Of a stretch of 44,147 bases of DNA, positions 16,887 to 44,147 are shown piece after piece (within the stretch, counting starts at the first letter, position 1; every line of letters starts with the position of its first letter). The notes beneath the pieces were generated by a model that was given only the letters and a program-made list of their open reading frames with translations, did no database searches and was not told where the DNA came from. The position numbers and the translations under genes are program-made. Source of the stretch: an uncultured Bacilli bacterium (lineage in GTDB: Bacteria > Bacillota_I > Bacilli_A > RF39 > UBA660); NCBI GenBank assembly GCA_944363915.1, contig CALVVR010000008.1, forward strand, positions 1 through 44,147, in the 5' to 3' direction.

Positions 16887-16905
16887 TTTAATAAGGAGAG
16901 TAGTG

Positions 16906-27964: not shown

Positions 27965-29730
27965 AAAATAATTATATTATTTATATTTTTATTATATCTA
28001 GTTTAATTAATAGTACTTTGTTACTTTTTACGACAACTGGATTAGGCAATATTCGTTTTATTCTTAGTGACTTAGTTATATTATTATTGATTTGTAGTTT
28101 TTCCTTTTTAGTTAAAAAAAGAAATCTTTATTTTTTAATATTTTCGATAATTTTATCTTCAATTTGTTGTATTAATTCAGTTTATTATAACAATTATAAT
28201 GATTTTGCTTCTGTTTATTTGTTTGAGACGATGTTTCAAGCTTTTAAACTTCCTAGTGAAGCTGTAACAAGTGTTTTTCAAGTATCTGATTTTATCTTTA
28301 TTTGGCAAATTTTATTGATGATTATTTTATATCGAATGAATAAATATGAAAAAAATGTTATTAATTTTAAAAAAAGTCTTTTAACAACATTTGCTTTATT
28401 AGTTATAATTTTATTATCTTGTAGTTCTAATGATATATACCGACTTACTCACGATTGGAATAAATCTTATGTTGTTCGTAACTTTGGAATATATAGTTAT
28501 CAAGTAAATGATATTTTTACAGTTGCTAAAAAAATTATTTGTCCAAAATGTGGTAAGAGCGAAGCACAAGTTATTGTCGACGAATATTTCCGTAATAGGG
28601 AAACTTTAGAAAATGAATACACCAATATTTTTAAGGATAAAAACATTTTATTTATTCATGCGGAAAGTGTTCAACAAATGTATTTAAATAGTGAGATAAA
28701 TAATCAAGTTATAACGCCTAATTTAAATAGATTAGCTAGTGAAGGTTTGTATTTTAGTAATTATTATTCACAAGAGAGTGTTGGGACTAGTAGTGATACA
28801 GAATTTACAATTACTAATTCAATTTTACCAGTTGGCACAGGTACCGTATTTATTAATTATGACTATAACAATTATCAATCGATGATTAAGTCTTTTGAAG
28901 AGATTGGTTATTATACCTTTAGTATGCATGGTAATATTTGTGAATATTGGAATAGAAGTCAAATGTATCAAGCAATTGGTTATGATCGTTTTTACTGCTA
29001 TAATGATTACGATTTAAGAGATCAAATAGGAATAGGATTATCTGATAAATCTTTCTTTAGTCAGTCAGCTGATATAATAAGTGATATTCATAATAATCAT
29101 GATAAGTTTTATGGTACTTTAATTATGTTAACTAATCATACCCCTTTTTATAATGATGGAAAAGTAGAATTTGATGTTGGTAATATGGAAGGTACTAAAA
29201 TGGGCGATTATTTAAAATTATTACATTATGCGGATGAAGCTATCGGTGAATTTATAAATAAACTAGATAATTTAGGTGTTTTAGATGATACCGTTATTGT
29301 TATATATGGTGACCACGATGCAAAGTTTACAATCAAACAATATGAAGAATATTTAGGTAAAGATATCGATTTTTATGAATATGAACAATTAACTAAAGTT
29401 CCTTTAATTATTTGGACGAAAGATCAAGAAGTAAAAGGAGAAATTACTAAAATAATGGGGGCTTATGATGTAATGCCAACTTTAGCTAATATGTTTGATT
29501 TTGAATATAAATATGCTTTAGGTCATGATATCTTTAGTGTTGATGAAAATATTGTCGTTTTTCCAAATGGTAATTGGGTAACTGATAAAGTATATTATAA
29601 TAATCAATTAAGTGACTATAAGGAATATAGCGAAGTAAGTGAAGAGTATTTAAAAGAAAATGAAACAAAAGCTAAAAAAGTAGTTGAAATTTCTAATTAT
29701 TTAATTAGGTATAATTTATTTGAGGAGTGA
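27934..29730 (+). CDS. LtaS-like membrane sulfatase/phosphoglycerol transferase
   Basis: The 598-residue protein has five membrane helices (to about residue 170), then an extracellular sulfatase-fold domain. Family signatures: NILFIHAESVQQM (metal Glu), the nucleophile region SVGTSSDTEFT, MHGN, MLTNHTPFY and VIYGDHDAKF. LtaS polymerises glycerol phosphate from phosphatidylglycerol onto a lipid anchor; relatives modify other envelope polymers. In LtaS the nucleophile loop usually reads GKTSDxEF. Here it reads GTSSDTEF, so the nucleophile may be Ser or the neighbouring Thr. AGGAG precedes ATG 27934, inside the ZIP gene. It has an unusual CPKC pair near residue 205. Confidence 0.88.
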   Translation: MHKFNLSQSLKNNYIIYIFIISSLINSTLLLFTTTGLGNIRFILSDLVILLLICSFSFLVKKRNLYFLIFSIILSSICCINSVYYNNYNDFASVYLFETMFQAFKLPSEAVTSVFQVSDFIFIWQILLMIILYRMNKYEKNVINFKKSLLTTFALLVIILLSCSSNDIYRLTHDWNKSYVVRNFGIYSYQVNDIFTVAKKIICPKCGKSEAQVIVDEYFRNRETLENEYTNIFKDKNILFIHAESVQQMYLNSEINNQVITPNLNRLASEGLYFSNYYSQESVGTSSDTEFTITNSILPVGTGTVFINYDYNNYQSMIKSFEEIGYYTFSMHGNICEYWNRSQMYQAIGYDRFYCYNDYDLRDQIGIGLSDKSFFSQSADIISDIHNNHDKFYGTLIMLTNHTPFYNDGKVEFDVGNMEGTKMGDYLKLLHYADEAIGEFINKLDNLGVLDDTVIVIYGDHDAKFTIKQYEEYLGKDIDFYEYEQLTKVPLIIWTKDQEVKGEITKIMGAYDVMPTLANMFDFEYKYALGHDIFSVDENIVVFPNGNWVTDKVYYNNQLSDYKEYSEVSEEYLKENETKAKKVVEISNYLIRYNLFEE

Positions 29731-29735
29731 TGAAT

Positions 29736-30068
29736 ATGCATTTTGGATTGTTTAAAGTTTTCTTTATCTTTGTTGCAGTTATAGTTGGAGTGATTTTTAT
29801 TCTTACTATATTAATGGTTGTTAGCCCTAAAATACGTGCTAAATTTATGAGCAAACAAATTAAAGCCACTAAATATATGATTGATGAAGTTGAAGATGAT
29901 TTGACGGATATTGCTACTAAAAGAGCTAATATTAATAAAGAAGGAGTAGAAATTACAGCAAAAGCAATTAAAGATGGTCTAAATAAAAGTACTAAATATT
30001 GTAAACATTGTGGCGAGAAAATAGATGAAGACTCTAAATTTTGTAAAAAATGTGGTAAAGAGCAATAA
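29736..30068 (+). CDS. membrane protein with C-terminal zinc ribbon
   Basis: The 110-residue protein has one N-terminal membrane helix (about 5-30), a charged helical middle and a C-terminal zinc ribbon CKHCGEKIDEDSKFCKKCGK with four Cys. This is the small zinc_ribbon_2-type module found on many membrane proteins of Firmicutes, and it would face the cytoplasm. ATG 29736 is chosen because GAGGAG lies 8 nt upstream; earlier starts are too close. It is the last gene of the ATPase-ZIP-LtaS operon. Function unknown. Confidence 0.7.
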   Translation: MHFGLFKVFFIFVAVIVGVIFILTILMVVSPKIRAKFMSKQIKATKYMIDEVEDDLTDIATKRANINKEGVEITAKAIKDGLNKSTKYCKHCGEKIDEDSKFCKKCGKEQ

Positions 30069-30128
30069 ATTATTATATTTTAATTTGATAATTAATATAA
30101 TGTAATGTAGTAAATTGTAGTAAAAGTC

Positions 30129-30157
30129 TTGCTTAAATAAAAATATTTTGCTATAAT
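30129..30157 (+). promoter_or_regulatory. promoter of the interrupted tRNA-Cys
   Basis: TTGCTT (30129-30134), 17-bp spacer, TATAAT (30152-30157) with extended TGC. It lies 10 bp ahead of the tRNA 5' end, showing that a real tRNA gene stood here. Confidence 0.75.
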
Positions 30158-30167
30158 TTACTTACAC

Positions 30168-30205
30168 GGGTCTATAGCCAAGTTGGTAAGGCATGGGACT
30201 GCAAC
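30168..30205 (+). tRNA. tRNA-Cys (GCA) 5' half, interrupted in the anticodon loop
   Basis: Acceptor strand GGGTCTA, TA, D-arm GCC-AAGTTGGTAA-GGC, A26, anticodon 5' strand TGGGA, and the complete seven-nt loop CTGCAAC (anticodon GCA) are all present in order. The next bases should be TCCCA for the 3' stem strand but read AACTA, and no T-arm (GGTTCGAATCC-type) or acceptor 3' strand follows. The leftward integrase gene begins its 3' end 118 bp further on. The break is therefore the left attachment site of the island. This fragment cannot give a functional tRNA. Confidence 0.8.
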
Positions 30206-30323
30206 AACTATATTGGTGAAACATTTCACTATTAATTTAAGCTAGATTTTACAAGGGTTTATGTAATCATAAACTCTTTTATTTTGTAAAAATGTCACAA
30301 AAAGTGTCACAGATCCCATATCT
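30199..30323. other. attL-type attachment region of the island
   Basis: This is the junction between the tRNA-Cys anticodon loop (candidate core CTGCAAC) and island DNA. It contains an outer inverted pair TTTTACAA / TTGTAAAA (30247-30254, 30284-30291) and two TGTCAC copies 12 bp apart (30293, 30305), which are candidate integrase or excisionase arm sites. Core length cannot be fixed without the right end. Confidence 0.55.
30255..30281 (+). terminator. hairpin terminator next to the attachment site
   Basis: GGGTTTATG (30255-30263) pairs with CATAAACTC (30268-30276), nine pairs with one wobble and loop TAAT, followed by TTTTATTTT. It would stop transcription from the broken tRNA gene before it runs antisense into the integrase gene. 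Confidence 0.65.
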
Positions 30324-31487
30324 TTATTTATGAAATTTATTGGTCACATTATATATACGATCAAGATCATCATCATACGTACAGGTATAATATTTTGTAG
30401 TTGTTCTTGCTTCACTATGTCCTAGTGATTCTTGTATTTCTTTAATTGAAATACCATCATGTAACAATAAAGATGCATAACTTGCTCTTAAACCATGATA
30501 AGTAACATGTTTAAATCCATGTTTATCTCTAAATCTTCTCCATCTATTCCCAATAGAATTTGGGCTAAGATAATAACCTAAATCATTTGTAAAAACCATC
30601 TCTGGTTTTTTATAATTTTTACCTAAAGTCTTTTTTAGCAAATTCTGTTCTTCCTTTAACTGAAGAAGAAGAACTGTAATTAAATCATTCATACGAACAG
30701 TTCTTTCTTTGTTACTTTTGGTTAACTTCAAATCTGTCCCTTTTGATTTACTTATTGATAAAGATTTCTTAACTCTGATTTGTTTTTTATCAAAATTAAT
30801 ATCTTTCCACCTAAGTCCTACAACCTCACCACGGCGTAATCCACAAAATAAGGGTATTAAAAAGGCACATTGATATTGAACAGGTAATTCGAGAATATAT
30901 TCAATTACTTCATCTATATCCATATCTTCTAAAATTTCTTTTTCGTAATCTTTTCTTTTAGGTAATTCAATTTTCCTACATGGTGTCATATTAATTATAT
31001 TAATATCTTCGTCAGAAGCCCAATTGAAAAAGGCGCGAACTATACTATAAACATTGTGAATAGTTGTTGAACTTAACTTTTCAAATGTACCATCATTACG
31101 TCTCATAGACTTTTTGTTTGTCAGTGTACCTATCCAATTTTGAATATCATTACGTTTCACATCACACATTTGCAAGTTACCAAGATATGGAAGAAAGTGA
31201 TTTGTTAATTTTGATATCTTATCATCTATAGTAGAACCTTCGTTTTTAATCTTTACAACTTGTTCCATCCATAACTTAACACAGTCTTTAACCTTCATAG
31301 TGCTATCTATTTTGCCTTTATTTTCCAATTCCTTCAAAGCATCATCTCTTATTGCAATAGCTTCATCAATTGTGCTATTACTGATTTGCTTTGAAAAGTA
31401 CAAATTTTTACCAGGAATACGGAACCTAATTCTAAAAGTTCCATTTCCTTTATCTTCTATATATTTTGTATCTAAGGTTTTAACCAT
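30324..31487 (-). CDS. tyrosine-type site-specific integrase
   Basis: The 387-residue phage-type integrase has an N-terminal AP2-like arm-binding domain (GTFRIRFRIPGKNLYFSKQI), a SAM-like core-binding domain (about 65-175), and a catalytic domain with Arg I in CGLRRGEVVGLRW (about 217), HGLR (about 327), LGH (about 356) and the nucleophile Tyr in TTTKYYTC (about 366). All catalytic residues are present, so it should be active. It lies directly inside the attachment site, as expected, and follows the excisionase gene by 50 bp. Ribosome site AAAGGAG. It ends close to the tRNA-Cys junction. Confidence 0.95.
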   Translation of the reverse strand: MVKTLDTKYIEDKGNGTFRIRFRIPGKNLYFSKQISNSTIDEAIAIRDDALKELENKGKIDSTMKVKDCVKLWMEQVVKIKNEGSTIDDKISKLTNHFLPYLGNLQMCDVKRNDIQNWIGTLTNKKSMRRNDGTFEKLSSTTIHNVYSIVRAFFNWASDEDINIINMTPCRKIELPKRKDYEKEILEDMDIDEVIEYILELPVQYQCAFLIPLFCGLRRGEVVGLRWKDINFDKKQIRVKKSLSISKSKGTDLKLTKSNKERTVRMNDLITVLLLQLKEEQNLLKKTLGKNYKKPEMVFTNDLGYYLSPNSIGNRWRRFRDKHGFKHVTYHGLRASYASLLLHDGISIKEIQESLGHSEARTTTKYYTCTYDDDLDRIYNVTNKFHK

Positions 31488-31518
31488 AAAAAACTCCTTT
31501 CAGTATTATTTGTCACTT

Positions 31519-31545
31519 AAAACTAGTTTTTTAGCAACTAGTTTT
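31519..31545 (-). terminator. hairpin between excisionase-like and integrase genes
   Basis: AAAACTAGTT (31519-31528) and AACTAGTTTT (31536-31545) form a perfect 10-bp stem that overlaps the excisionase stop codon. It is weak as a terminator because the T-run is short. It may attenuate integrase relative to the upstream operon. Confidence 0.35.
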
Positions 31546-31804
31546 CTTCTATAATTACTCGTTTATCAAGCCATTCATCAATATCTTTTATTCGATAGAA
31601 GCGATGCTTCCCAATTTTTAAATAAGGTAATTGGTTTTTAGTAGCTTCTCTTAAAGTTCCATCATTAAAACATGGGTATATCTCACACACTTCTTGTGGT
31701 GTTAATAAATCCATATTATTTTTAACAAGTAGTTTAGGAGAGTTTTTTAATAGTTCTCCTAACATACCCACTAAATCATCATTGTTTAACTCTTTACTTT
31801 TCAT
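31538..31804 (-). CDS. excisionase-like helix-turn-helix protein
   Basis: The 88-residue protein has a C-terminal HTH_17/MerR-like excisionase fold: LLTPQEVCEIYPCFNDGTLREATKNQLPYLKIGKHRFYRIKDIDEWLDK. Such proteins bend DNA at attachment sites and direct integrases to excision, and they often sit just upstream of int, as here. The first 30 residues are an acidic, helical extension of unknown role. It is expressed with the upstream recombinase-like operon (26-bp gap). Confidence 0.8.
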   Translation of the reverse strand: MKSKELNNDDLVGMLGELLKNSPKLLVKNNMDLLTPQEVCEIYPCFNDGTLREATKNQLPYLKIGKHRFYRIKDIDEWLDKRVIIEEN

Positions 31805-31830
31805 ATATACTCCTTTATCTCTGACCTAAA

Positions 31831-32238
31831 CTAATACTTTTCTAATTTATCTAATACAGATTTCAATATATCTGAATCATAAATCTGGGATTTCAAATGT
31901 TCTCTATTATATGTTCGCATTTTTTCAATTTGCTTAAAAACTTTATCTAAAGATATTTCTTTATTTTTTATAAAGAATTTGATATCTTCTTTTTTTAGCA
32001 TCTCTAATATTTCAAAAATAGTAGATTGTTTAGTACCTAAATTGTAAATATTTAGGACATATAAACTATCACCATTACTTATTTTCTCAAGAACTTTATA
32101 TAGAAAAGGTCTTTCTTTACCGCAATGATCATAATATACCTTAATATTAGGTATCGTTTTCATTTTTTCATAGTAATATCCTAAAGCACCTTTTGAAGGT
32201 ACTTGAAAATTTTCAAGCTTAAAATATCCATATTTCAT
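31831..32238 (-). CDS. degenerate serine-resolvase-like domain protein (paralogue C)
   Basis: The 135-residue protein follows the layout of the resolvase catalytic domain: YGYFKL in place of YGYxRVS, a variable loop, IKVYYDHCGKERPFLYKVLEKI, then GDSLYVLNIYNLGTKQS in place of GDxLxVxxLDRLGRS, and EDIKFFIKNKEISL. The catalytic Ser and the active-site Arg residues of the DRLGR motif are missing (YNLGT), and there is no C-terminal DNA-binding domain. It is therefore unlikely to cut DNA. It resembles its two upstream neighbours more than any intact recombinase. A structural, regulatory or inhibitory role is inferred. Its ATG overlaps the out-of-frame tail of the preceding gene by ATGA. Confidence 0.65.
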   Translation of the reverse strand: MKYGYFKLENFQVPSKGALGYYYEKMKTIPNIKVYYDHCGKERPFLYKVLEKISNGDSLYVLNIYNLGTKQSTIFEILEMLKKEDIKFFIKNKEISLDKVFKQIEKMRTYNREHLKSQIYDSDILKSVLDKLEKY

Positions 32239-32350
32239 ATTTCATATATTTCCTTATTTCTACTAACATCAACATGCCTTAATGTGTCCAATATAGGATT
32301 TAATATTTTAAAAGCATGTTCATCAGATTTTATGGCTCCATCACCATCTA
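32235..32350 (-). other. out-of-frame C-terminal tail of the preceding resolvase-like gene
   Basis: In a frame shifted by one base relative to the 32351-32671 gene, this stretch reads KLIDGDGAIKSDEHAFKILN and on to a TGA that overlaps the next start codon as ATGA, the same coupling seen elsewhere in the operon. Adding one A to the A-run at 32355-32358 (minus strand) would join both parts into a 145-residue protein, matching the 135 and 139 residues of the sister genes. Confidence 0.6.
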
Positions 32351-32671
32351 TTAATTTTCATCTTCTATTACTTTAGAAATTTTACTAAGACTAAATTCTT
32401 TATTGTTTATAAAGAATTTAATGTTAGCATATTTAAATGCCATTAAAATAGCAAATATATTTTTTATATTATTACCTAAATCATCAATACTTGTAACATA
32501 AACACTATCTCCAGTACGTAAATCACAAATTAGGTCTTTTATGGCTCTGTTATAACTGCCACAATAATCACAATATAAATAATTAATATCTGGAATAGTC
32601 ATCAGTTGACTATTTTTTAACTCTTCCTTTGTAACTATTTTCTTATTTAATTTTAAATAACCTCTTTTCAT
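32351..32671 (-). CDS. degenerate serine-resolvase-like domain protein (paralogue B, frameshifted)
   Basis: The 106-residue reading resembles paralogues A and C: RGYLKLNKK at the N-terminus, INYLYCDYCGSYNRAIKDLI, GDSVYVTSIDDLGNNIKNIF and ANIKFFINNKEFSL. The catalytic Ser and the RLGR arginines are absent (DDLGN). It stops early in an A-rich stretch, while a coding-like tail continues in another frame to 32235 (see the separate entry). This is consistent with a one-base deletion, a slippage-controlled gene, or a sequencing error. It starts in an ATGA overlap with paralogue A. Confidence 0.6.
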   Translation of the reverse strand: MKRGYLKLNKKIVTKEELKNSQLMTIPDINYLYCDYCGSYNRAIKDLICDLRTGDSVYVTSIDDLGNNIKNIFAILMAFKYANIKFFINNKEFSLSKISKVIEDEN

Positions 32672-33087
32672 ATAATTTCTCCTTCTAAATCATCTTTAAA
32701 AATAGGGGCCTTATCATATTTATCAAAATTAACAAATTGATAAGTGCGAAAATGATATTCAATACTATCATAAGTGATGGTCAAATCTATTTCTCTACCA
32801 TTTACAAAAACTCTTACATTTCTATCTTTTAATGTCTCTAAGTTATCTAAGACATCACTTACAAGATACCCTAAATCATTTAATCTATAAATGTATAAAG
32901 AGTGAAACTCACCAATCCTACTTAATAATTGCAATAAATTTTCATCTTTTGTACCATAGTCACAATGAATGTCCCACACTTGCCATTGGTCATAACAGTG
33001 ATTAAGTTCATGCTCAGGAATTCCATTTTTTCTAATCTTAAAATATCCATGTTTGTAAGTATTATAAGAATAACAATTACATATCAT
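32668..33087 (-). CDS. degenerate serine-resolvase-like domain protein (paralogue A)
   Basis: The 139-residue protein is the most divergent of the three. An N-terminal MICNCYSYNTYK precedes HGYFKIRKNG, then WDIHCDYGTKDENLLQLLSRI, HSLYIYRLNDLGYLVSDVLD and RNVRVFVNGREIDL follow the resolvase-domain order. LNDLGY replaces LDRLGR, and the catalytic Ser is not present. It starts in a TAATG overlap with the RecA-like gene stop and ends in an ATGA overlap with paralogue B, so translation of all three is chained to the RecA-like gene. Not recognised as any characterised family; the resolvase relation is inferred from motif order. Confidence 0.55.
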   Translation of the reverse strand: MICNCYSYNTYKHGYFKIRKNGIPEHELNHCYDQWQVWDIHCDYGTKDENLLQLLSRIGEFHSLYIYRLNDLGYLVSDVLDNLETLKDRNVRVFVNGREIDLTITYDSIEYHFRTYQFVNFDKYDKAPIFKDDLEGEII

Positions 33088-34115
33088 TATATTTCCTCCT
33101 CCATATCTATAAATATTACTTTATCATCTGTAATTAAACTTTCTAAAATATCAGACTGCATCAATCCCTTATTTTCTAATTCTTTAACAAAATTCATAAT
33201 ACCTTGTGCTTTAATTTCTTCATTATCATAAAGCATCGAATAATATGAACCATTTTTTCTAATAATGTCTTTTTCAATTAACTCATAGATGTAATTCCAT
33301 CTACTTGCTAACCCAACTCCATAATTCAGAAAAGCAGGCACTGTAATACCAGATTTTGATTTATTACTTTTAAAAATTTCAAAGACTAATGGTATTCCAG
33401 TAGCTACATCTTTTGTTAGATCATGAAATGCTTTTTCTTTGTATGAAGAAGCTTTATCTATTTTTATTATAATGTCAGTATTATAGACACTATTATTTGC
33501 TCCATAGCCTCTCTTTTTAGAGCCACTAACCATATTTAGTTCATTTCTATATTGATTAATAAATATAAAACACAACTTTCTATCACCAGCAAGAGCTTTA
33601 TATTTATCCATAAATTTGGTAAGTGGAACACTATTATAGCTTGTATTATTAGTTGTAATAGATATCTTTTTACCATCAATACTAGTAAAACAACTATTAA
33701 TTAAAACAGCTATAGAATCAATAATTACAAAATTTATTTCACCAGTAGAAATAAATTTATCTAAAACATCTTCTACCACAGAAAATTCTGATTCTTTAAC
33801 TAAGATGAAATTACTATTCAAGTAAGATTTTACATTTGTTGTCTCTAATATTTCATTAGATACTGATCTTTCAGCATCTATATATAGGACTTTAAAGCCC
33901 TTATTACATAAAGCATCGGCTATACCTAATGCCATAGTTGTTTTACCCACGCCAGAATCAGCTACAAACTGAATAAATGAACCTAGTTCAAATCCACCTT
34001 CAAGTAGTTTATCAATAGGATATATATCACTTTTGATAACTTCATTACTTTTTGTATAATCAGGGAGTGAACTAATAAGTTCACTCAATGACTCTTTTTT
34101 ATAATTCTTCAACAT
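33087..34115 (-). CDS. RecA/RadA-like ATPase of the island
   Basis: The 342-residue protein has a RecA core: IDKLLEGGFELGSFIQF, Walker A VADSGVGKTTMALGIADAL (about 50-68), LYIDAERSVS (the acidic catalytic position), Walker B FVIIDSIAVLI, and FIFINQYRNELNMV, corresponding to RecA FINQIR with its following loop. It is shorter and more divergent than housekeeping RecA and resembles phage- or element-borne recombinases. The C-terminal part (about 265-342) is helical and charged. ATG 34115 follows TGGAGT. It overlaps the upstream gene by 17 nt and the next by one base. A role in loading or controlling element recombination is inferred. Confidence 0.8.
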   Translation of the reverse strand: MLKNYKKESLSELISSLPDYTKSNEVIKSDIYPIDKLLEGGFELGSFIQFVADSGVGKTTMALGIADALCNKGFKVLYIDAERSVSNEILETTNVKSYLNSNFILVKESEFSVVEDVLDKFISTGEINFVIIDSIAVLINSCFTSIDGKKISITTNNTSYNSVPLTKFMDKYKALAGDRKLCFIFINQYRNELNMVSGSKKRGYGANNSVYNTDIIIKIDKASSYKEKAFHDLTKDVATGIPLVFEIFKSNKSKSGITVPAFLNYGVGLASRWNYIYELIEKDIIRKNGSYYSMLYDNEEIKAQGIMNFVKELENKGLMQSDILESLITDDKVIFIDMEEEI

Positions 34116-34632
34116 TGTAATACTCCATTTCATTTTCTTTTGCACTATTAATTGATTCTCTAACATTATTTTCATCTAATTCATGCACTCTAGCTCTCGC
34201 AATTAGATTCTCATTTACATCAAGATCTCGACACACAAGTTTTTCTCTATCTACACAAAAAGTAGGAAATTTTAAATCTAAATAAGAATCCTTATCCATT
34301 TCAAGTGTAAATAACTGCTCGAAGTTATAAACAACTACCAAATCATATGGAATAAAGAAATTTGGAACGTTTTTATTCTCTTGAAGGTATTCAATATCTG
34401 TCATCATATCTGAAATTTTACTAGTTGACCAATTGTATAGTCCAGAACGATTAAAATCTACATAACTTGCTGCCACATACCAGTTAGTTTCGTCATGAAT
34501 ATAGTTTTCAATTGCTTTAGCATATACAGATAAACAATAATTGCTATCCGTACCATTAGTGCGAATATATATCGCAACATTAAGTGGTAAGTTTTTTAAA
34601 TTCTTACCGTCAAATTCTAAGTTATAAGTCAT
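34099..34632 (-). CDS. degenerate large-serine-recombinase N-terminal domain protein
   Basis: The 177-residue protein matches the catalytic-domain layout of large serine recombinases: VAIYIRTNGTDSNYCLSVYA (in place of VAIYIRVSTxxQxxSxxxQ), AIENYIHDETNWYVAASYVDFNRSGL, then ISDMMTDIEYL and DLVVVYNFEQLFT in place of D-hydrophobic-xxLSRLxR. The nucleophile Ser position and the RLxR arginines are lost, and the recombinase and zinc-ribbon domains are absent. ATG 34632 follows AGGAGAAG. It is the first gene of the leftward operon and overlaps the RecA-like gene, so the two are probably made together. Confidence 0.6.
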   Translation of the reverse strand: MTYNLEFDGKNLKNLPLNVAIYIRTNGTDSNYCLSVYAKAIENYIHDETNWYVAASYVDFNRSGLYNWSTSKISDMMTDIEYLQENKNVPNFFIPYDLVVVYNFEQLFTLEMDKDSYLDLKFPTFCVDREKLVCRDLDVNENLIARARVHELDENNVRESINSAKENEMEYYNVEEL

Positions 34633-34793
34633 AATTTCTTCTCCTATTTCTATACTTAGCAAAGGATTTTGGCGCCTTATTGGCCTTTGCTGACAATAGA
34701 ATACCAAAATCACTATTGACAGACTTATGTTTTGGCGTTACAATATCGTTACAAACAAAAAAATTTCAAAAAAAAGAAGGTGCTAAACCCCCT
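34633..34793. promoter_or_regulatory. divergent control region of the island
   Basis: The region between the leftward recombinase operon and the rightward zinc-protein gene holds an inverted repeat GCAAAGG / CCTTTGC (34659-34665, 34684-34690) and GATTTTGG (34665-34672) with its inverse CCAAAATC (34704-34711). A further TTTTGGCG sits at 34730-34737, inside the rightward promoter spacer. These fit operator sites for an island regulator, but the regulator is not identified. Confidence 0.5.
34716..34744 (+). promoter_or_regulatory. promoter of the zinc-protein gene
   Basis: TTGACA (34716-34721), 17-bp spacer, TACAAT (34739-34744). One TTTTGGCG element lies within the spacer. Confidence 0.7.
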
Positions 34794-36173
34794 ATGAAAT
34801 CAGCCGTTTTAATAAAAAGTTTAAAAAAATTTAAAAAATTTAATTCGAGTGTAGAATTTAATAATATTTTACTAACTGGGTATAATCCATTGAATACAAT
34901 TGATAAAAAAATAAATAGTCATAATTTAGTAAAAAAAACTTGTACACTTGGGAAAAAAATATATAAAATAATCAAGGAAATAGAACTAGACAAGAATGGT
35001 AATGTCGATTTATTATTTGAGATAGTAAATCCAGAAGATAATATTAGTAATAAAGAAATTATTCAAAAACACATTAAAAACTTCAAAAATATTAAATCTA
35101 AAAATCATACTCATTACAATTTAATATTTAACTTTTACAAAAAGTGTTATGAATTATTAAAACAAAGTAATATTTCTGAAAGTATATCTGTTGATATGTT
35201 GCCATTGGTTATTAGTAATAACATCGGCTTAGCAACCAAAAACTATTACGAAGGATATGAATTTGATTTAAAAATATTAAAAAAACTTAAAGAACAATAT
35301 GACAATTTTTTCACCATAGTAGAAAACAATTTGGACAAAATAGATTTGGAGTCACTCATAAAAGAAATTAAATATATTCCTATTAATATAGAAAATTTTT
35401 ACGAGAACATTTATATTAATGGGGATGGTATTAATAATAAATATGCAATAGAAATATTCAATGCAATTACAGAATGGTGTATGGAATTTGGTATGCCATT
35501 TTGGACTGAACGAACAGAGTTATCTAAATATACTAAAGATTTGTTTATATCTAATGGTGAAATTTATGACAAATGGATAAATGAATCAGATATAAATAGT
35601 CCTAATGGTACAGATTCTTCATATACGTGGCAAGAACTTGCAAATAATAGCGTTCCTATAAATGGATTAATAACTATTAGCATTATAATGTATCTATTCT
35701 ATAGTATATGGGAAGAATATCATAGCATAAAAAAACTTAGTAAGGAAAAAGAAGAAGAATTAGTTTTTCTAAAATCAATAATTGGTTCAGATTCTGATGA
35801 TCCTATAGATTTACTTGAAAAAGCAGATGTATATCATAATTACATATTAAATAATTTCAATTGTATTGGGGCATTAAAATTGAATATTAATGAGAAAAAA
35901 GTTAAAACAACCCAAAATGGATACTATATTTTTTATAATGTCAAACAATATGAAAGTTCAGCAATTGCTGCTTGGGATGTATTTTATCATGACTATTTGG
36001 GAAATTCAGAAATAAATAATCCTTTACCTTACTGTAATATCTGTCAGAAAGAAATATCTAAAAATGAACACTATATTAAAACCGGTGACTGTTTATGTAA
36101 TAGTTGTTACAAAAAAAGAGAAAAAGTATTAGGTAAAAATAGAACAAACAAATTCAGAAAAAACAACAACTAA
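34794..36173 (+). CDS. unknown protein with C-terminal zinc finger
   Basis: The protein of about 459 residues has no recognisable enzymatic domain. It is mostly helical and charged, with a long N-terminal Lys-rich region. A hydrophobic stretch PINGLITISIIMYLFYSIW may be a membrane or buried helix. The C-terminus is a four-Cys zinc-finger-like segment, YCNICQKEI followed by CLCNSCYKKREK. Start ATG 34794 has GAAGG 13 nt upstream, farther than usual, so a different start is possible. It is the first rightward gene of the island and is divergent from the recombinase operon. Its C-terminal end overlaps the G5 fragment in another frame, which suggests a deletion or insertion joined them. Confidence 0.6.
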   Translation: MKSAVLIKSLKKFKKFNSSVEFNNILLTGYNPLNTIDKKINSHNLVKKTCTLGKKIYKIIKEIELDKNGNVDLLFEIVNPEDNISNKEIIQKHIKNFKNIKSKNHTHYNLIFNFYKKCYELLKQSNISESISVDMLPLVISNNIGLATKNYYEGYEFDLKILKKLKEQYDNFFTIVENNLDKIDLESLIKEIKYIPINIENFYENIYINGDGINNKYAIEIFNAITEWCMEFGMPFWTERTELSKYTKDLFISNGEIYDKWINESDINSPNGTDSSYTWQELANNSVPINGLITISIIMYLFYSIWEEYHSIKKLSKEKEEELVFLKSIIGSDSDDPIDLLEKADVYHNYILNNFNCIGALKLNINEKKVKTTQNGYYIFYNVKQYESSAIAAWDVFYHDYLGNSEINNPLPYCNICQKEISKNEHYIKTGDCLCNSCYKKREKVLGKNRTNKFRKNNN

Positions 36174-36174
36174 A

Positions 36175-36735
36175 AAGGTAACTGAAAAAGAAACTATAAA
36201 ATATAGTTCAACAAAACAAAATGAAGCTAATATGAAAAAAGGCTCAACATCAGTTGTACAAGCGGGTTCTAATGGTACTAAAGAAATAACATATGAAGTA
36301 ACTTATGATTCTAATGGAAAAGAATTGAGTCGTAAAAAAATATCAGAAAAAACAACAAAAGAACCTGTTGATGAAATTGTGAAAGTTGGTACTAGTGATT
36401 TCAATATAAATTCAGATAAAATTACAGGTAATTTAATGGGATTTATGTGTACTGAGGCAGACTCATTAACTAATCCAGATGGTGCTAAAGCGTGTGATGA
36501 CAGTAAATCACTTAAAAGTTTTAATGCAACACTAATTAATGATGTAGCATATCTTTATATGGTTAATAATGCTACTATAACACCAATTAAGATAAATGAA
36601 TATAGCGGAATGACTTATAGTGGCACATATCAAGGTTCATTACACTATTTTGATACTCGTGGTGGAGATGGTGCTCAAGAACCACTTACTATGGAAGATT
36701 GTAATAGATACGGTTTAAGTTGTGGTGCTTGGTAA
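36175..36735 (+). pseudogene. 5'-truncated G5-domain protein
   Basis: The open frame reads a full G5 domain (KVTEKETIKYSS at 36175, MKKGSTSVVQAGSNGTKEIT YEV, then KKISEKTTKEPVDEIVKVGT) and a short Cys-containing C-terminal domain of about 100 residues ending GLSCGAW. The domain begins in frame upstream of the only ATG (36232), there is no signal peptide, and no ribosome site is visible, while the frame closes at 36130. G5 proteins are normally secreted wall-binding proteins, so this is the 3' end of a gene whose 5' part was lost, probably when the upstream gene was joined to it. The 36232 ATG could give a 167-residue product lacking half the G5 fold. Confidence 0.6.
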
Positions 36736-36743
36736 TAAAATGT

Positions 36744-36771
36744 AAGGAGATATTAAATATCTTCTTTTTTT
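36744..36771 (+). terminator. terminator after the G5 fragment
   Basis: AAGGAGATATT and AATATCTTCTT are fully complementary (with one wobble), followed by a T-run. It directly precedes the next promoter. Confidence 0.75.
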
Positions 36772-36772
36772 G

Positions 36773-36781
36773 TGGTATAAT
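36773..36781 (+). promoter_or_regulatory. extended -10 promoter of the nuclease-HTH pair
   Basis: TGGTATAAT in the 18-nt string TTTTTGTGGTATAATATA, which recurs identically before the gene at 42579. Confidence 0.55.
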
Positions 36782-36802
36782 ATATTTATCGGAGGCGTTA
36801 AT

Positions 36803-37480
36803 ATGGGTTATAAGAAAAAAGAAATTATAAATAAACTGAGTTCAATAAATAAATTAGAAGATTTGTATATTGAAAAAATGATTAATTATACAGGTAAAAC
36901 AAATGATACTAAAGAAAAGTATACAGAGGTTATAGCAAAAGAAATTTTAGATAATCTTGATAAATTTAATTTTAAAAATATAAATGTAATAAATAGAAAT
37001 AAAGGATATAATGTAGGTACACATAATGGAAAATATAATGAGGAAAGCCCTAGACGTGAAGAAATAATTGCGATGAAATTATTTAATACTACACATAATG
37101 GGTTAGGAAAATTTATTGATTACCAAATACCTTTAAAAGATAAGAAAAATACAAAAGCGGGTAAAATAGATTTAATATCATATAATGAAGAAGAAAATAT
37201 ATTATATTTAATTGAATTAAAAAATGATTCAAGTAAAGAAACCTTATTAAGATGTGTATTAGAAATAATGACATATATCAATCAAGTGGATAAAAAAAAA
37301 TTATTATTGGATTATAATATGGAATCTACTATTAAAATTAAACCAGCAATATTGATTTTTAAAGGTACTAGACCACATAAAGATATTTCTGATGAATACG
37401 TAACAAAATTAATCCAAAAATTTGATATAGCGTTATATATAGCAGATATTGATGAAAATTTTAATATTAAAAGTGTCTAA
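36803..37480 (+). CDS. PD-(D/E)XK nuclease-like protein
   Basis: The 225-residue protein has the nuclease core pattern AGKIDLISYN (Asp near 121), then LYLIELKND (Glu near 137 and Lys near 139), which is the D...ExK signature of PD-(D/E)XK nucleases, with an upstream acidic segment EESPRREEIIAMKLF as the likely helix containing the first Glu. ATG 36803 is chosen for GGAGG at 36791; a TTG-like start upstream would precede that site. Restriction enzymes, repair nucleases and defence effectors share this fold. Only 2 bp separate it from the HTH gene that follows. Specificity cannot be read. Confidence 0.65.
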   Translation: MGYKKKEIINKLSSINKLEDLYIEKMINYTGKTNDTKEKYTEVIAKEILDNLDKFNFKNINVINRNKGYNVGTHNGKYNEESPRREEIIAMKLFNTTHNGLGKFIDYQIPLKDKKNTKAGKIDLISYNEEENILYLIELKNDSSKETLLRCVLEIMTYINQVDKKKLLLDYNMESTIKIKPAILIFKGTRPHKDISDEYVTKLIQKFDIALYIADIDENFNIKSV

Positions 37481-37482
37481 TT

Positions 37483-38055
37483 ATGAATAAAACTAAAAAG
37501 AATGTAGCAATAGTAGGTTTTGAAAATGAAGAAAGAAAATGTGTTAGTTATCCATGTATAGAAAATAGTGTAGTTCACTATTGTGATACTATATCAGAAG
37601 CAATTAAATATCAAGGATACATGATAATTATCAATAATTCTAAAAATATTGATTTAGTATCTTTTGATAAGAAATATAGAAAATCATTAAACAAATATGA
37701 AAGAATATTAATTTATAATGAAAAATATAATTGGACATATGATAAATGGTCTAGATTTGAAAAAGTAAATAGAGGTATTTTTGATGATTATTCATATCAG
37801 CTTGGTGAAGAATGGGATAAATATAAACTTGATAAAGAAAATGAGATAAGTAAAAAATATAATATTACTAAACAAAATCAATTAGAAAGTTTATATAATT
37901 ATTTAAAAGATTATAAAATAGTTAAAACTTCTAAGATAGCTAGTGATTTAAATCTAAATGAAAGAACTATTCAAAGATATATGCAAGATATAAATAATAT
38001 TTATCATAATGTAGGATATGATTATTCAAATAATGAGTGGTATTTTGTTTGGTAG
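37483..38055 (+). CDS. unknown protein with C-terminal helix-turn-helix
   Basis: The 190-residue protein has an N-terminal alpha/beta-looking region (1-115) without family recognition, then YNYLKDYKIVKTSKIASDLN and LNERTIQRYMQDINNIYHN, a winged-helix HTH of the HTH_11/DeoR-type segment (about 132-175). It starts 2 bp after the PD-(D/E)XK gene stop, so the two form an operon. It might be the regulator or DNA-specificity partner of that nuclease. Function is not assignable. Confidence 0.6.
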   Translation: MNKTKKNVAIVGFENEERKCVSYPCIENSVVHYCDTISEAIKYQGYMIIINNSKNIDLVSFDKKYRKSLNKYERILIYNEKYNWTYDKWSRFEKVNRGIFDDYSYQLGEEWDKYKLDKENEISKKYNITKQNQLESLYNYLKDYKIVKTSKIASDLNLNERTIQRYMQDINNIYHNVGYDYSNNEWYFVW

Positions 38056-38077
38056 TTGAAAATAAGTAAACACATAT

Positions 38078-38106
38078 AAATACAGAGAATTAACTCTGTA
38101 TTTTTT
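38078..38106 (+). terminator. terminator after the nuclease-HTH pair
   Basis: AAATACAGAG pairs with CTCTGTATTT, loop AATTAA, followed by a T-run. Confidence 0.85.
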
Positions 38107-38166
38107 GTCGTTTAAAATATCTTAATTTTTTATATGATATGCTTTTATCAGAAATGAGGAAAGTAT

Positions 38167-40230
38167 ATGAAAAAAATAGAAATGCATTGTAAAACAAAAT
38201 ATAGTATTGATAAAGATTCAACTATAGATATTGAATCAGTACTATGGAATGTTAAAGAAAATAAAGAAAGAGGAATTGTTTTTGTTGATAAGGATTCAAT
38301 AGTAGCATTTCCTAAAATAGAAAAAGTATATAAGAAACTTTGTGAAAAGGATGAAACTTTTAAACAATTTAAAATAGGATATGGGGTACAGTTAACTTCA
38401 ATAATTGATAATAAAGAATATGAAGTAATTGTTTTAATAAAGAATAATGATGGATTAAAACAGTTATATAAAATCATGTCAGAATATTTAAATAAATATG
38501 AAAAAAAGATTCCTATAAATGAGTTAACTAGCATAGACAATTTTTTAATAGGATTAATATTAAATGATGAAAGTATAAAATTAGATTTATCTATATTTGA
38601 TTATTTAGAAGTAAATAGTTATATGGATATATCTAATTTAAAAGATAAAGAAAAAATAGTTTATTCAAATATACCTAATGCTTTATTTGAAGGAGAATTA
38701 AAAGCTAAGGAGGTATTGTATGTTCATCAAAAGATAGATAAAAATCCTCTTTGTAGACTGTATAAAGATACAGAGGATACACTAAAGGAATTTAATGATA
38801 AAGAAATAGTTATTACTAATTCAAATATGCTTTTTGACAATTTAGATAATATAATTATTAATGATGATAAGTTTTATGTAACTCATGTAGATAATTTCTA
38901 TGAATTTGAAAATTTAGTTAGAAATACTTTTAAGAAAAAATATAAAAATCCATCTCAAACTACAATTAATAGATTAAATGAAGAATTGAATTTAATAAAA
39001 GATTTGGATTATACATATGTCTATATTTTATTAATGATGATAACAAAGCATTGTAAAAAGGAGAATGAATATTACCAATTAGATGGTTATATTAATAATT
39101 CTTTAGTAGCGTATATTTTAGAACTTACAGAGATAGAACCTTTTAATCTACCTTATGAATTATTTTTTAGTGAAATACCTAAAATAGAATTTATTGTATC
39201 TCCAGAATTTTATAATAAAAAATTAGTTAAATATATAATGGGAAAATTTGAAAAGGAATTAATAAGATGTAATTATCAATTTAAACTAAAAGATAAATCT
39301 ACTAGAAGAGTTATTAAACATTATGAAATAAAAAAGAAACAAGAATTAGATTCATCTACAAAAGATTATATTTGTAATGTTTTAGAAGATATCCCACTAT
39401 ATAAAGAGAGTAGATCACATTTGGTTTACTTGATTCCAAAGGGAAAAGATATTTTTGATTTTACACCTTATGAAAAAGGAACTACATTTTCTAATGATAA
39501 ATTAAAAGGAACACATTTTGATTATCATGATTTAAGAAATAATTTTATTAGTATCCAATTTATATTAAATGAAGATGTTAAAAATATAACTAATTTAATT
39601 AATAAAACAAATTTAAAAATAAAATTCTGTAATGATAAAAGAGTATTCAATTTATTTAGAAACACAGAAGAATTTGGATGTAAATTTAATATACTAGATA
39701 AATCAACTGGAACATTAAATATAAGATATTTTGGAGATGTTGAGTTAGAAAATAAACTTATGAATATTTCAAATATATGGATTCATGATTTAGAGAAAAT
39801 TTTAATGGATATAAACCATGGAATTATAAAAGATGATTTATATAATAATTTAAAGATGAGAAATCTTGATGACGTGGCAATCTTCAATGTAATAAACTCT
39901 TTAAAAGATAATGATAGATTATTAGTACCAAAAGCATTTATTTTAAATAAAATTAGAATAGCGTACATGCAAATGTATTATAAATTATATCATCCAAAAG
40001 AATACTATAATGAAATGTTATCTAATATAGATTACAACTTTATATACGATGGAGTATATAGTTATTCATTTGATAATATTAAGAAAAGATATTTTGAGTT
40101 GAAAGAAACAAATAAACTAGATTTAGGTTTGCAAGAATATGAAGAATTTAAATTATTAGAAATATTAATAGAAATGTATGAAAGAAATATTAAATATTCT
40201 ATTATAGACAGAAAGATAATTATTGATTAA
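38167..40230 (+). CDS. PolC-like protein lacking polymerase catalytic residues
   Basis: The 687-residue protein follows DNA polymerase III PolC of low-GC Gram-positives from end to end. A PHP-like start IEMHCKTKYS; YEVIVLIKNNDGLKQLYKIMSE; a segment RLNEELNLIKDLDYTYVYIL then ILELTEIEPFNLP; the palm region PKIEFIVSPEFYNKKL where PolC has PDIDLNFSGEYQ; KDIFDFTPYEKG and GTHFDYHDLRNNF; STGTLNIRYFG; VRIAYF-like IRIAYMQMYYKLYHP; and EILIEMYERNIKYSIIDRK. The palm aspartates are replaced (PDIDL to PKIEF; KLDILGHD to SIQFILNED), the SRGSVGSS loop is gone, and the inserted exonuclease and OB domains are missing. It is almost certainly not a polymerase. A decoy or clamp/replisome-interacting role is inferred. 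Confidence 0.75.
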   Translation: MKKIEMHCKTKYSIDKDSTIDIESVLWNVKENKERGIVFVDKDSIVAFPKIEKVYKKLCEKDETFKQFKIGYGVQLTSIIDNKEYEVIVLIKNNDGLKQLYKIMSEYLNKYEKKIPINELTSIDNFLIGLILNDESIKLDLSIFDYLEVNSYMDISNLKDKEKIVYSNIPNALFEGELKAKEVLYVHQKIDKNPLCRLYKDTEDTLKEFNDKEIVITNSNMLFDNLDNIIINDDKFYVTHVDNFYEFENLVRNTFKKKYKNPSQTTINRLNEELNLIKDLDYTYVYILLMMITKHCKKENEYYQLDGYINNSLVAYILELTEIEPFNLPYELFFSEIPKIEFIVSPEFYNKKLVKYIMGKFEKELIRCNYQFKLKDKSTRRVIKHYEIKKKQELDSSTKDYICNVLEDIPLYKESRSHLVYLIPKGKDIFDFTPYEKGTTFSNDKLKGTHFDYHDLRNNFISIQFILNEDVKNITNLINKTNLKIKFCNDKRVFNLFRNTEEFGCKFNILDKSTGTLNIRYFGDVELENKLMNISNIWIHDLEKILMDINHGIIKDDLYNNLKMRNLDDVAIFNVINSLKDNDRLLVPKAFILNKIRIAYMQMYYKLYHPKEYYNEMLSNIDYNFIYDGVYSYSFDNIKKRYFELKETNKLDLGLQEYEEFKLLEILIEMYERNIKYSIIDRKIIID

Positions 40231-40252
40231 AATGATATAGGAGAAAAGGATA

Positions 40253-40987
40253 ATGAAAAAAGAATATGTATTTTTAGATTTAACAAATTATAAGAAAACA
40301 AAATGTATAGAATGTGTAAAAGTAAATAATGAATGTAAAATAAGCATATTGAAATATGAATATAAAAAAGAAACTATAAATGAGTTAATTGGTTTTATAG
40401 ATAGAACTACTGTGATAGGTTATGATTTATCAAGTGTTTTAGTAGAGTTATTAACTGATATGTATGAATCAAAAATTTATGATTGTGTTTTTCATTACTA
40501 TGATATGAAATGTTATAATAAAAATAATACTAACTATCGTGTATTTAGAGGACTTAATTATAAACTATATTTATTAGATAATGGGTATTATGTTTATGAT
40601 AAAGGAGATGAAAAATTAGCAAGTTATTATATACAAAAAAAAGAATTAGAAAAGAATTGTGATTATACGGAAGAAGAATATTTATATTTAAAAAATAATG
40701 GAGCTAATTTTATAACTAATATTTTTCATATATCGGATAGTACAATAAAATATACTAATGAATATACAATTTATAGTGATAATAAATTAAGAGATTATAG
40801 ATATATGATTGATAAAATGAAAGATGCATTAGAGTTTATAAAAAATCATCCTAATTTAAATATAAAAATGGTTTGTATTGGTACTTTAGAAGAATTAAAA
40901 GAAAATTATAAAGTGTTAGGTGAAGAAGATTTAGAAATAATTTTAAATTTAATTGTTAAAGAAAAAGAATTGTGGAGCAATTGGTGA
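40253..40987 (+). CDS. degenerate DnaQ-like exonuclease domain protein
   Basis: The 244-residue protein begins KEYVFLDLTNYKKTKCIECVKVN, resembling YVVFDVETTGL-IIELAAVKV of DEDD exonucleases such as the one inserted in PolC. VIGYDLSSVLVELL takes the place of VAHNASFDxxFL, and DEKLASYYI matches the DAExT-type last motif. Only the first Asp is retained; the Glu and middle Asp are lost. The C-terminal 90 residues have no recognised fold. It starts 22 bp after the PolC-like gene with GGAGAAAAGG. The relation is weaker than for the PolC-like protein and rests on motif order. Together the two genes look like a split, inactivated PolC. Confidence 0.5.
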   Translation: MKKEYVFLDLTNYKKTKCIECVKVNNECKISILKYEYKKETINELIGFIDRTTVIGYDLSSVLVELLTDMYESKIYDCVFHYYDMKCYNKNNTNYRVFRGLNYKLYLLDNGYYVYDKGDEKLASYYIQKKELEKNCDYTEEEYLYLKNNGANFITNIFHISDSTIKYTNEYTIYSDNKLRDYRYMIDKMKDALEFIKNHPNLNIKMVCIGTLEELKENYKVLGEEDLEIILNLIVKEKELWSNW

Positions 40988-40993
40988 TATAAT
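40985..40993 (+). promoter_or_regulatory. extended -10 promoter before the MBL nuclease gene
   Basis: TGATATAAT starts in the stop codon of the preceding gene, 19 bp before the TTG start. It may give the MBL gene independent transcription. Confidence 0.4.
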
Positions 40994-41011
40994 AAAAGTA
41001 GGTGGTATATT

Positions 41012-42211
41012 TTGGAAATAAGAATAATAAAAGGAACAAATCAAATAGGTGGATGTATAACAGAAATAACAAGTAAAAATGCAAAAATTTTAATTGATTT
41101 CGGAAATGATTTAGAAGATACTAAAGAATCATTTGAATTAGATGGTTTAACATATGGTAAATCAAAATATAATGCTGTATTTATAACTCATTCACATATA
41201 GACCATATAGGGCTTATAGAAAAAATAAACGAAGATATTCCTGTATATGTTGAAGAAAGTTCTTTGAAAATTTATAATATAACATGCGATTTTTGTGGGG
41301 AAGATAAGCTAACCAAAAAAATAAATACATTTAAAATATATGATACTATTGAAATAAATAATATTAAAGTAACGCCATATAGAGTAGACCATTCATCTTA
41401 TAATTCTTGTATGTTTGTAATAGAATGTGAAGATAAAAAAATTCTACATACAGGAGACTTTAGATTACATGGAAGAAAAAAAGAAGAGACATTAAATAAT
41501 TTGAAGAGAATAGGTAAGGTAGATATATTAATAACTGAAGGTACATCTTTAAGTAGAAATATCTTAGAATATGAGACTGAAGAAAGATTAGAAAAAGAAG
41601 CTTTAGAATATATGAAAAAATATGACCAAGTATTTATAATGCATTCTTCAACCAATATTGATAGAACAATATCTTTTACAAAATCAGCTTTAAAAACAGG
41701 TAAGAACTATATTTTAGACTTATTTACTTATTCTTTGAGTAAAGTAGTAAACATGAATATAAAGGTAGATTATAAAAGAATATTTGTATGGAAACCTTTA
41801 AGATATTATTTAAAAGATGATAAATTTAAAAGTGAATATATGGATTTTGATACTAGTTCATTCTTTGGAAAAAAATATGCTATGAATGTAAAAGTATCAA
41901 TGTTAGAAGATATAAAGAAACTAAAAGAGAAAGGTTTAATAACAAATGCTTGCTTAATATATTCAATGTGGGATGGTTATATAGAAAAAGAAGAAAAATT
42001 AAGAAATTTTATTGATGAAATAAAAAATATGGGTATAGAATTTAAAAAGCTTCATACTTCAGGACATACAGATATAAATTCTATGATAAAACTAAATAAA
42101 ATAGTTAGTCCAGATAAAACAATTATTATTCATACAGAAAATAGGAAAAAAGGGAAGAATGTTTTTAATGGTATTGTAGATTTAAATGATAATGAAATTT
42201 TTAAATTGTAG
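41012..42211 (+). CDS. metallo-beta-lactamase-fold nuclease (RNase J/beta-CASP-like)
   Basis: The 399-residue protein has an MBL core with intact metal ligands: GTNQIGGCITEI, LIDFGNDL, FITHSHIDHIGLIE (HxHxDH near 60-65), YRVDHSSYNSCMFVIE, LHTGDFRLHG and the ending HTSGHTD followed by IIIHTENRK. This order matches the RNase J/beta-CASP nucleases (aCPSF-like), with the beta-CASP part at about 195-330. Unlike its two upstream neighbours it keeps its catalytic motifs. It probably processes or degrades RNA or single-stranded DNA. Start TTG 41012 with GGTGG nearby. It is the third gene of the operon. Confidence 0.85.
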   Translation: MEIRIIKGTNQIGGCITEITSKNAKILIDFGNDLEDTKESFELDGLTYGKSKYNAVFITHSHIDHIGLIEKINEDIPVYVEESSLKIYNITCDFCGEDKLTKKINTFKIYDTIEINNIKVTPYRVDHSSYNSCMFVIECEDKKILHTGDFRLHGRKKEETLNNLKRIGKVDILITEGTSLSRNILEYETEERLEKEALEYMKKYDQVFIMHSSTNIDRTISFTKSALKTGKNYILDLFTYSLSKVVNMNIKVDYKRIFVWKPLRYYLKDDKFKSEYMDFDTSSFFGKKYAMNVKVSMLEDIKKLKEKGLITNACLIYSMWDGYIEKEEKLRNFIDEIKNMGIEFKKLHTSGHTDINSMIKLNKIVSPDKTIIIHTENRKKGKNVFNGIVDLNDNEIFKL

Positions 42212-42222
42212 GAGGAAAATAT

Positions 42223-42477
42223 ATGGAAGAAAAAAGTTTAAAAGAATTAATTGAATCAAAAGATAATATTTCTGAACAATTAAGAGTATTAAGAAAGTAC
42301 AGAAATAGAGAAGATGTAAGAGAATATGTTGATAATTTATTAAAAAATCAATATGTAACAGATTATGTAAGATACATGATAGATAAATATTATTTTGGAA
42401 ATAAGGAAGCAATTAAAGCAGAAAAAAATTGTGTAGAGAAGATGTTTAAAGTTGTTTTAAGGTATGATATTAAATAA
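42223..42477 (+). CDS. small helical protein of unknown function
   Basis: The 84-residue, highly charged, helical protein (MEEKSLKELIESKDNISEQL) has no recognised domain. It starts 11 bp after the MBL gene with TAGGAGG and is the last gene before a terminator, so it belongs to the same operon. A small partner protein or inhibitor of the MBL nuclease is possible. Function unknown. Confidence 0.65.
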   Translation: MEEKSLKELIESKDNISEQLRVLRKYRNREDVREYVDNLLKNQYVTDYVRYMIDKYYFGNKEAIKAEKNCVEKMFKVVLRYDIK

Positions 42478-42498
42478 AAGGAAGTATTGAGTAATTGT

Positions 42499-42523
42499 AA
42501 AGTCCATGAAAAATGGGCTTTTT
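42499..42523 (+). terminator. terminator ending the PolC-like operon
   Basis: AAAGTCCAT pairs with ATGGGCTTT (one wobble), loop GAAAA, followed by T. It directly precedes the next extended -10. Confidence 0.8.
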
Positions 42524-42524
42524 G

Positions 42525-42533
42525 TGGTATAAT
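42525..42533 (+). promoter_or_regulatory. extended -10 promoter of the gene at 42579
   Basis: TGGTATAAT within TTTTTGTGGTATAATATA, identical to the promoter at 36773 over 18 nt. Confidence 0.55.
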
Positions 42534-42578
42534 ATAACTGATAGATAAACAATGATTTATAGAGTTGGAGGTATTTAT

Positions 42579-43661: not shown

Positions 43662-43687
43662 TCAACAAATTACAATTTATCATTCAA

Positions 43688-43719
43688 AAAGCCACTAATC
43701 AAATCCGATTAGTGGCTTT
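43688..43719. terminator. bidirectional terminator
   Basis: AAAGCCACTAATC / GATTAGTGGCTTT, a perfect 13-bp stem with loop AAATCC. It lies between the convergent membrane-protein and resolvase genes. Confidence 0.85.
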
Positions 43720-43733
43720 ACATTACCAATATA

Positions 43734-44147
43734 TTAATTTTCTTTTAAAACTTTAAGATACCTATAACCAGTATTGCGACTAATAACACATAACCTACAA
43801 AACTCAGTGAAATTAATCCTGTGCTCAATATATTCTATATAATACTTAGCAACATCTGGGTTCTTATTATAAATTCGCTCCCTCGTAAGCTTTGGTTGCC
43901 CACCAATACGACCTTCTTCACGTGCTGCATCAACACCTTCTTTCACTGCCTCAACGATCATTAATCGATTTATCTCATTAATCATCCCCAACATCATAAG
44001 CTGTCCTTGTGTGAGTATTGATAAGGAACCTGTACAATCTAAAACAAAATCTCCCATAACTAGTTTTAACTTCTTAGATTTTGCAAAATCTAATATTTCT
44101 AATAATTGTTGCAAACTTCTTGTTAATCTTGAAGCTTCAATAACATA
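43734..44147 (-). CDS. serine resolvase/invertase, partial
   Basis: The reading frame is open to the window edge, so the N-terminus is missing. It reads YVIEASRLTRSLQQLLEIL (RLxR retained), a TQGQLMMLGMINEINRLMIV helix corresponding to the long resolvase dimerisation helix, EGVDAAREEGRIGGQPKLT and a C-terminal HTH (FTEFCRLCVISRNTGYRYLKVL). The catalytic Ser would lie beyond the edge. Unlike the four degenerate proteins on the left it keeps the active-site arginines visible here and has a DNA-binding domain. It lies on the minus strand, so the gene begins beyond position 44147. Confidence 0.85.
   Translation of the reverse strand, partial: YVIEASRLTRSLQQLLEILDFAKSKKLKLVMGDFVLDCTGSLSILTQGQLMMLGMINEINRLMIVEAVKEGVDAAREEGRIGGQPKLTRERIYNKNPDVAKYYIEYIEHRINFTEFCRLCVISRNTGYRYLKVLKEN

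Follow-up and report, generated by a model that had tools for sequence, protein, structure and literature searches.

Predicted catalytically dead serine-recombinase domains encoded beside a RecA-like ATPase in a mobile element of an uncultured Bacilli bacterium

A mobile element of an uncultured Bacilli bacterium encodes four proteins, here called gene1, s1, s2 and s3, that sequence profiles and structure predictions identify as serine-recombinase catalytic domains without a DNA-binding domain of their own. All four have lost key catalytic residues, and they are predicted to be unable to cut DNA via the serine mechanism. We tentatively propose that they serve as non-catalytic regulatory subunits of the element's recombination proteins, most likely of its intact serine resolvase.

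Results

Gene layout

In the window, the whole stretch of 44,147 nucleotides that was analysed, the four dead-domain genes span 31831-34632 on the minus strand, and all four were found where the preliminary description of this DNA had placed them. The features of the window that concern us are listed below.

34099..34632, minus strand: first gene (gene1), 177 aa, putative catalytic domain of the large-serine-recombinase type, with helix E only
33087..34115, minus strand: RecA/UvsX-like ATPase, 342 aa, ATPase motifs and RecA-like C-terminal domain kept
32668..33087, minus strand: s1, 139 aa, predicted dead small-resolvase domain with an orthologue in L114
32351..32671, minus strand: s2, 106 aa, predicted dead small-resolvase domain without helix E, with a -1-frame tail after the stop
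31831..32238, minus strand: s3, 135 aa, predicted dead small-resolvase domain, predicted fold with pLDDT 85
31538..31804, minus strand: excisionase-type HTH protein (HTH_17, PF12728, E 2e-8)
30324..31487, minus strand: tyrosine integrase (PF00589, E 1.4e-27)
34794..36173, plus strand: divergently transcribed protein with a Cys-rich C-terminus, with a homologue at the same place in L010; the start of the gene was fixed by comparison with L010
30103..44147, no strand: part of the mobile element within the window; its right end lies past the contig
43734..44147, minus strand: serine resolvase of the intact type, truncated at its N-terminus where the contig stops

At the left end of the element, the order on the minus strand is gene1, the RecA-like gene, s1, s2, s3, the excisionase-type HTH gene and the tyrosine integrase gene. 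The four dead-domain genes have intact open frames, and a Shine-Dalgarno-like sequence is present for each operon gene. The overlaps reported in the preliminary description were all recovered, namely 17 nt between gene1 and the RecA-like gene (34099-34115), TAATG at the RecA-like stop and s1 start (33087) and ATGA at the s1 stop and s2 start (32668-32671), and the operon does lead into an excisionase gene and then an integrase gene. The picture of a fully overlapping operon holds from gene1 through s2 but not for s3, which is set off from s2 by a 112-nt gap.

Within that gap (32239-32351, minus strand) s2 continues for some 39 codons in the -1 frame, reaching s3 (KLIDGDGAIKSDEHAFKILNPILDTLRHV...). 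The tail resembles the C-terminus of s3 and represents either an old frameshift or a programmed one; the s2 stop is identical in the copy of the element in genome G344.

Fold and domain content

The proposal that these proteins keep a resolvase fold is supported by the agreement of sequence profiles, AlphaFold models of s3 and gene1, and comparison with the PDB. A search against the Pfam profile PF00239 went only part of the way: s1, s2 and s3 gave sub-threshold matches (E 3.5e-4, 9.6e-4 and 0.056, below the curated cut-off) and the single-sequence search with gene1 gave none, whereas profiles of each group do find serine recombinases. With the profile of the small proteins, the best PDB matches were Sin (8e-4) and gamma-delta resolvase (1.8e-3), and the best 15 were all resolvases or invertases. 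The profile of gene1 and its relatives placed the large serine recombinases 3g13 (3.6e-5) and 3guv (4.6e-4) first.

The AF2 model of s3, made from an 8-sequence alignment, reached a pLDDT of 85, and the first 33 PDB entries that it matched were all serine recombinases, the best being Sin (3pkz; Z 12.6, rmsd 3.2 across 107 residues). The model of gene1 is weaker (pLDDT 66); its best PDB match was the serine recombinase 3guv (Z 10.4), and Foldseek with this low-confidence model was uninformative, with PhiC31 integrase on top at E 0.06. No HTH or PF07508 match was found in gene1, s1, s2 or s3, all of which stop after the catalytic domain.

The fold of s3 is common to the small serine resolvases (Sin, gamma-delta/Tn3; PF00239) over about 107 residues, and Tyr6 and Asp36 are kept. 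In contrast to those enzymes, the dead small proteins lack Ser10, Arg68, the paired arginines and the DNA-binding domain, and their helix E is shortened or absent. Similarly, gene1 matches the N-terminal domain of large serine recombinases (PF00239 plus PF07508; TP901-1, Bxb1, 3g13, 3guv) and, like them, retains Arg8 and the beginning of helix E. It differs from them in lacking the recombinase and zinc-ribbon domains, and in the gene1 group Ser10 has become Asn, Arg or Leu and Arg68 has become Gln or His.

Loss of catalytic residues

The dead sequences were aligned with 31 intact serine recombinases encoded in the same genomes or in neighbouring ones; every intact protein has Arg8, Ser10, Arg45, Arg68 and Arg71. 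For s1, s2, s3 and gene1, respectively, the Ser10 column holds Arg, Val, Glu and Asn, the Arg68 column Asp, Asp, Asn and Gln, and the Arg71 column Tyr, Asn, Thr and Thr. The earlier claim that the nucleophilic Ser and the RLxR arginines had been lost is therefore correct for all four window proteins. Arg45 is retained in s3; Arg8 is retained in gene1 and across its group, and in the small group the replacement is mostly Lys or Arg. Arg68 is absent from all 13 dead sequences examined, and Ser10 is clearly absent from 12 of them, the exception being the gene1 homologue of L015, for which the result depends on gap placement.

Two origins of the dead domains

Trees built on the core domain, to be read with caution because of their long branches, group the nine small dead proteins in one clade within the small resolvases (support 98/96 and 99/94) and the four sequences of the gene1 group in a second dead clade within the large serine recombinases (99/97 and 98/95). 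The preliminary description had spoken of parallel loss in four proteins; fourfold loss is rejected by the tree, which places s1, s2 and s3 in one dead clade and gives two origins, one of them common to all the small proteins. Deriving all 13 dead sequences from one common ancestor gives a poorer fit but is only weakly disfavoured (p-AU 0.054). Two losses followed by duplication fit the trees best. L114, an element from a different genus, carries an orthologue of s1 (99/95).

Additional weak matches to the small-protein profile in G174, G398, G611 and G726 (E ~1e-8) were set aside. Their frames are 210-244 aa long, and since the sole one read whole, that of G174 (L048), is an intact resolvase, matches near this E value are taken as ordinary resolvases.

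Conservation within the dead families

When the 74 columns of the nine small dead proteins are ranked by conservation, those of Ser10 and Arg71 come near the bottom, at 71 and 72, and are free to vary. Asp36 does not vary at all (rank 2), and every one of the nine has Asp, Asn or Glu in the Arg68 column (rank 8). The top conserved positions of the family, Tyr6, Asp36 and the replaced Arg68, lie at or near the old active site. The dN/dS of s1 between L015 and L016 (elements of G079 and G472) is 0.17, a value that rests on a small number of changes (7 synonymous and 5 non-synonymous codons). Furthermore, the order gene1, RecA-like gene, s1, s2, s3, integrase gene is kept in G079 (L010) and G472 (L016), and the RecA-like protein is about 50% identical across elements with the conserved operon order. 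Because of the conservation of Asp36 and of the Arg68 column, the dN/dS of s1 and the kept operon order, it looks as though in the small dead clade an old constraint was replaced by a new kind, rather than lost by simple decay. The idea of a conserved non-catalytic role, put forward in the preliminary description, gains from the same evidence: the operon is kept in a second lineage, dN/dS is low for the one gene measured, and the conserved residues are specific to the family.

The mobile element

All genomes compared here are metagenome assemblies. Positions 30103-44147 are 99.93% identical to G344, while the flanking chromosome is 76.6% identical; such a difference between two species indicates a very recent transfer of an integrative element. 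The window is an entire contig of an uncultured gut bacterium of the Bacilli/Mycoplasmatota type, and the nearest named genome with the same element is Candidatus Faecisoma merdavium (G344).

The resolvase that is cut by the contig end in the window is full length in the L009 copy (16854-17507), with Arg8 and Ser10 present. An intact serine resolvase is found in every dead-carrying element with a long enough contig (window/L009, L016, L047 and L114), and similar resolvases are present in related elements that carry no dead proteins (L011, L017, L042 and L115). Upstream of the intact resolvase gene lies a repeated site (CCAAGAAACATTTGTTAAGTGG ... GTTTCTTGG) in L009 (17200-17887), L016 (2600-2900) and L017 (2740-2960), which is likely the recombination site of the resolvase. 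A repeat search in the element gave no clear invertible segment. The dead genes lie directly upstream of an integrase gene or an Xis-integrase pair in every case (window, L010, L016, L047 and L114); in the window they stand beside a tyrosine integrase that has its own Xis, and elsewhere beside large serine integrases that are unrelated.

Several other genes of these elements deserve mention. A 687-aa protein (38167-40230, plus strand) is collinear with PolC-type DNA polymerase III (E 1.3e-35 to the PolC model) at about half its length. In an alignment with PolC, IPKIEFIV stands in place of the catalytic VPDIDLNF and IQFIL in place of LDILG, which suggests that the catalytic aspartates have been lost. 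It was seen only in the window element and its G344 copy; other genomes matched with full-length host PolC only. The element also encodes an RNase J-like protein of the beta-lactamase fold (41012-42211, plus strand) and, directly behind the gene for the Cys-rich protein, a fragment of a G5-domain protein (36232-36735, plus strand) that lacks the first part of G5. At the element border a gene for a small Cys-rich protein (29727-30068) is unmatched in G344; there, the element directly abuts the preceding gene. In L114, a resolvase fragment comprising helix E and the start of the DNA-binding domain (8809-9063) lies directly upstream of the single dead gene; the same element also carries an intact resolvase.

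The RecA-like ATPase

Walker A, Walker B and the catalytic Glu are invariant in all six relatives of the RecA-like protein, which also keeps the NQxRN region and the region of the RecA C-terminal domain. All of these align with RecA/UvsX-like recombinases (PF00154, phrog_97), yet the window protein belongs to a separate family: the phage and plasmid collections held only generic RecA, about 24% identical to it. Host RecA is encoded by a separate gene. The family has been seen so far only in the window's bacterial family, and no relatives turned up in IMG/VR, which was scanned with the RecA-like protein, with its alignment and with the gene1 alignment. Matches in G134 and G152 proved to be host RecA, and one in G069 a phage protein.

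The RecA-like gene usually lies directly upstream of an integrase gene, with or without dead proteins. Five loci have it without dead proteins (L011, L012, L017, L042 and L043), and two have dead proteins without it (L047 and L114); in both of these, one dead protein is flanked by an intact resolvase and a large serine integrase. The RecA link is present in two of the four dead-carrying element types. The coupling proposed in the preliminary description stands as far as the overlapping operon and the kept ATPase motifs go, but it is no general rule; it is real in one lineage and not required.

Discussion

Based on these results, we regard the dead domains as possible non-catalytic partners of the element's recombination proteins, a reading that we favour while holding it tentatively. 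The proposal draws on the intact resolvase in dead-carrying elements and on the precedent of Sin, which at its regulatory site II is catalytically inactive and makes subunit surface contacts that control the catalytic tetramer (PMC2428073). There too, a serine-recombinase domain serves architecture and not cutting (PMC2428073). However, Sin at site II is the same active protein, bound via its own DNA-binding domain, whereas here the proposed role would fall to separate dead proteins without one. In this view, the dead domains would retain the surfaces by which the recombinase fold contacts other proteins, and would bind recombination proteins of the same element, most likely the intact serine resolvase. 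As inhibitory or architectural partners, they would determine when the element is resolved, excised or replicated. In the window lineage, this control would be placed in the same operon as the element's RecA-like recombinase.

Several observations restrict this proposal. Resolvases also occur in elements without dead proteins, and so the co-occurrence may only reflect a shared backbone. Helix E is the usual dimer helix; since the shortest dead proteins (s2 and that of L047) lack it, classical heterodimer poisoning is not the mechanism for all. The DNA-bound role suggested in the preliminary description is an unlikely one for the small proteins on their own, given that they have no DNA-binding domain. 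In addition, the positions under conservation are concentrated around the old active site and not at a known regulatory interface.

This clustering would fit a different possibility, that the fold has been re-used outside recombination as a pocket for a ligand, metal or protein, possibly directed against host functions or competing elements. Such a role would find a parallel in the PolC-like homologue of a host enzyme, without catalytic residues, encoded by the same element. On the other hand, no known defence or counter-defence family matches the four dead proteins: none of the PADLOC models matched them, and the RecA-like ATPase gave a weak partial match to mad8 (E 2e-5). We consider this re-use unlikely, though worth keeping in mind.

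Alternatively, the dead domains may be adaptors of the RecA-like protein, loading or unloading factors in a UvsY-like role, their resolvase ancestry being incidental. The translation overlaps on both sides of the RecA-like gene (17 nt and TAATG), conserved in G079 and G472, and the kept ATPase motifs agree with this. It becomes doubtful in view of L047 and L114, whose small dead proteins have no RecA-like gene nearby even though that of L114 is an orthologue of s1 (99/95), and of the five RecA-like loci without dead proteins.

Regulators of directionality or excision that work on the integrase itself would be expected at the constant place of the dead genes, which is the usual spot of such factors, and gene1 derives from the type of N-terminal domain found in large serine recombinases. 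Nevertheless, a factor specific to an integrase is not expected to survive an exchange of tyrosine for serine integrase. Since dead genes lie upstream of either type alike, a role tied to one integrase is rather unlikely.

It is improbable, too, that the RecA-like ATPase and the dead-domain array form one machine in which an ATP-driven filament carries non-catalytic recombinase protomers and builds or disassembles the element's recombination synapses; if true, this would be a mode of control that is not known from serine recombinases. Equally improbable is that the dead domains are decaying, functionless remnants: the -1-frame tail on s2 and the truncated fourth small gene of G079 point that way, but frames are otherwise intact across large divergence with operon order kept, and residues conserved in a family-specific manner, the dN/dS of s1 and ribosome sites at every gene speak against it.

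Among kinases and some nucleases, families of relatives that have lost catalysis are well known. The open papers that we searched held no relevant precedent for inactive or pseudo serine recombinases and no described family of dead serine-recombinase domains free of DNA-binding domains. The conserved acidic replacement of the essential Arg68 offers a simple handle on the role of a re-used pocket. Resolvases and integrases are widely used in genome engineering, and if the dead domains regulate these enzymes in trans, they would amount to genetically encoded inhibitors or directors of natural origin.
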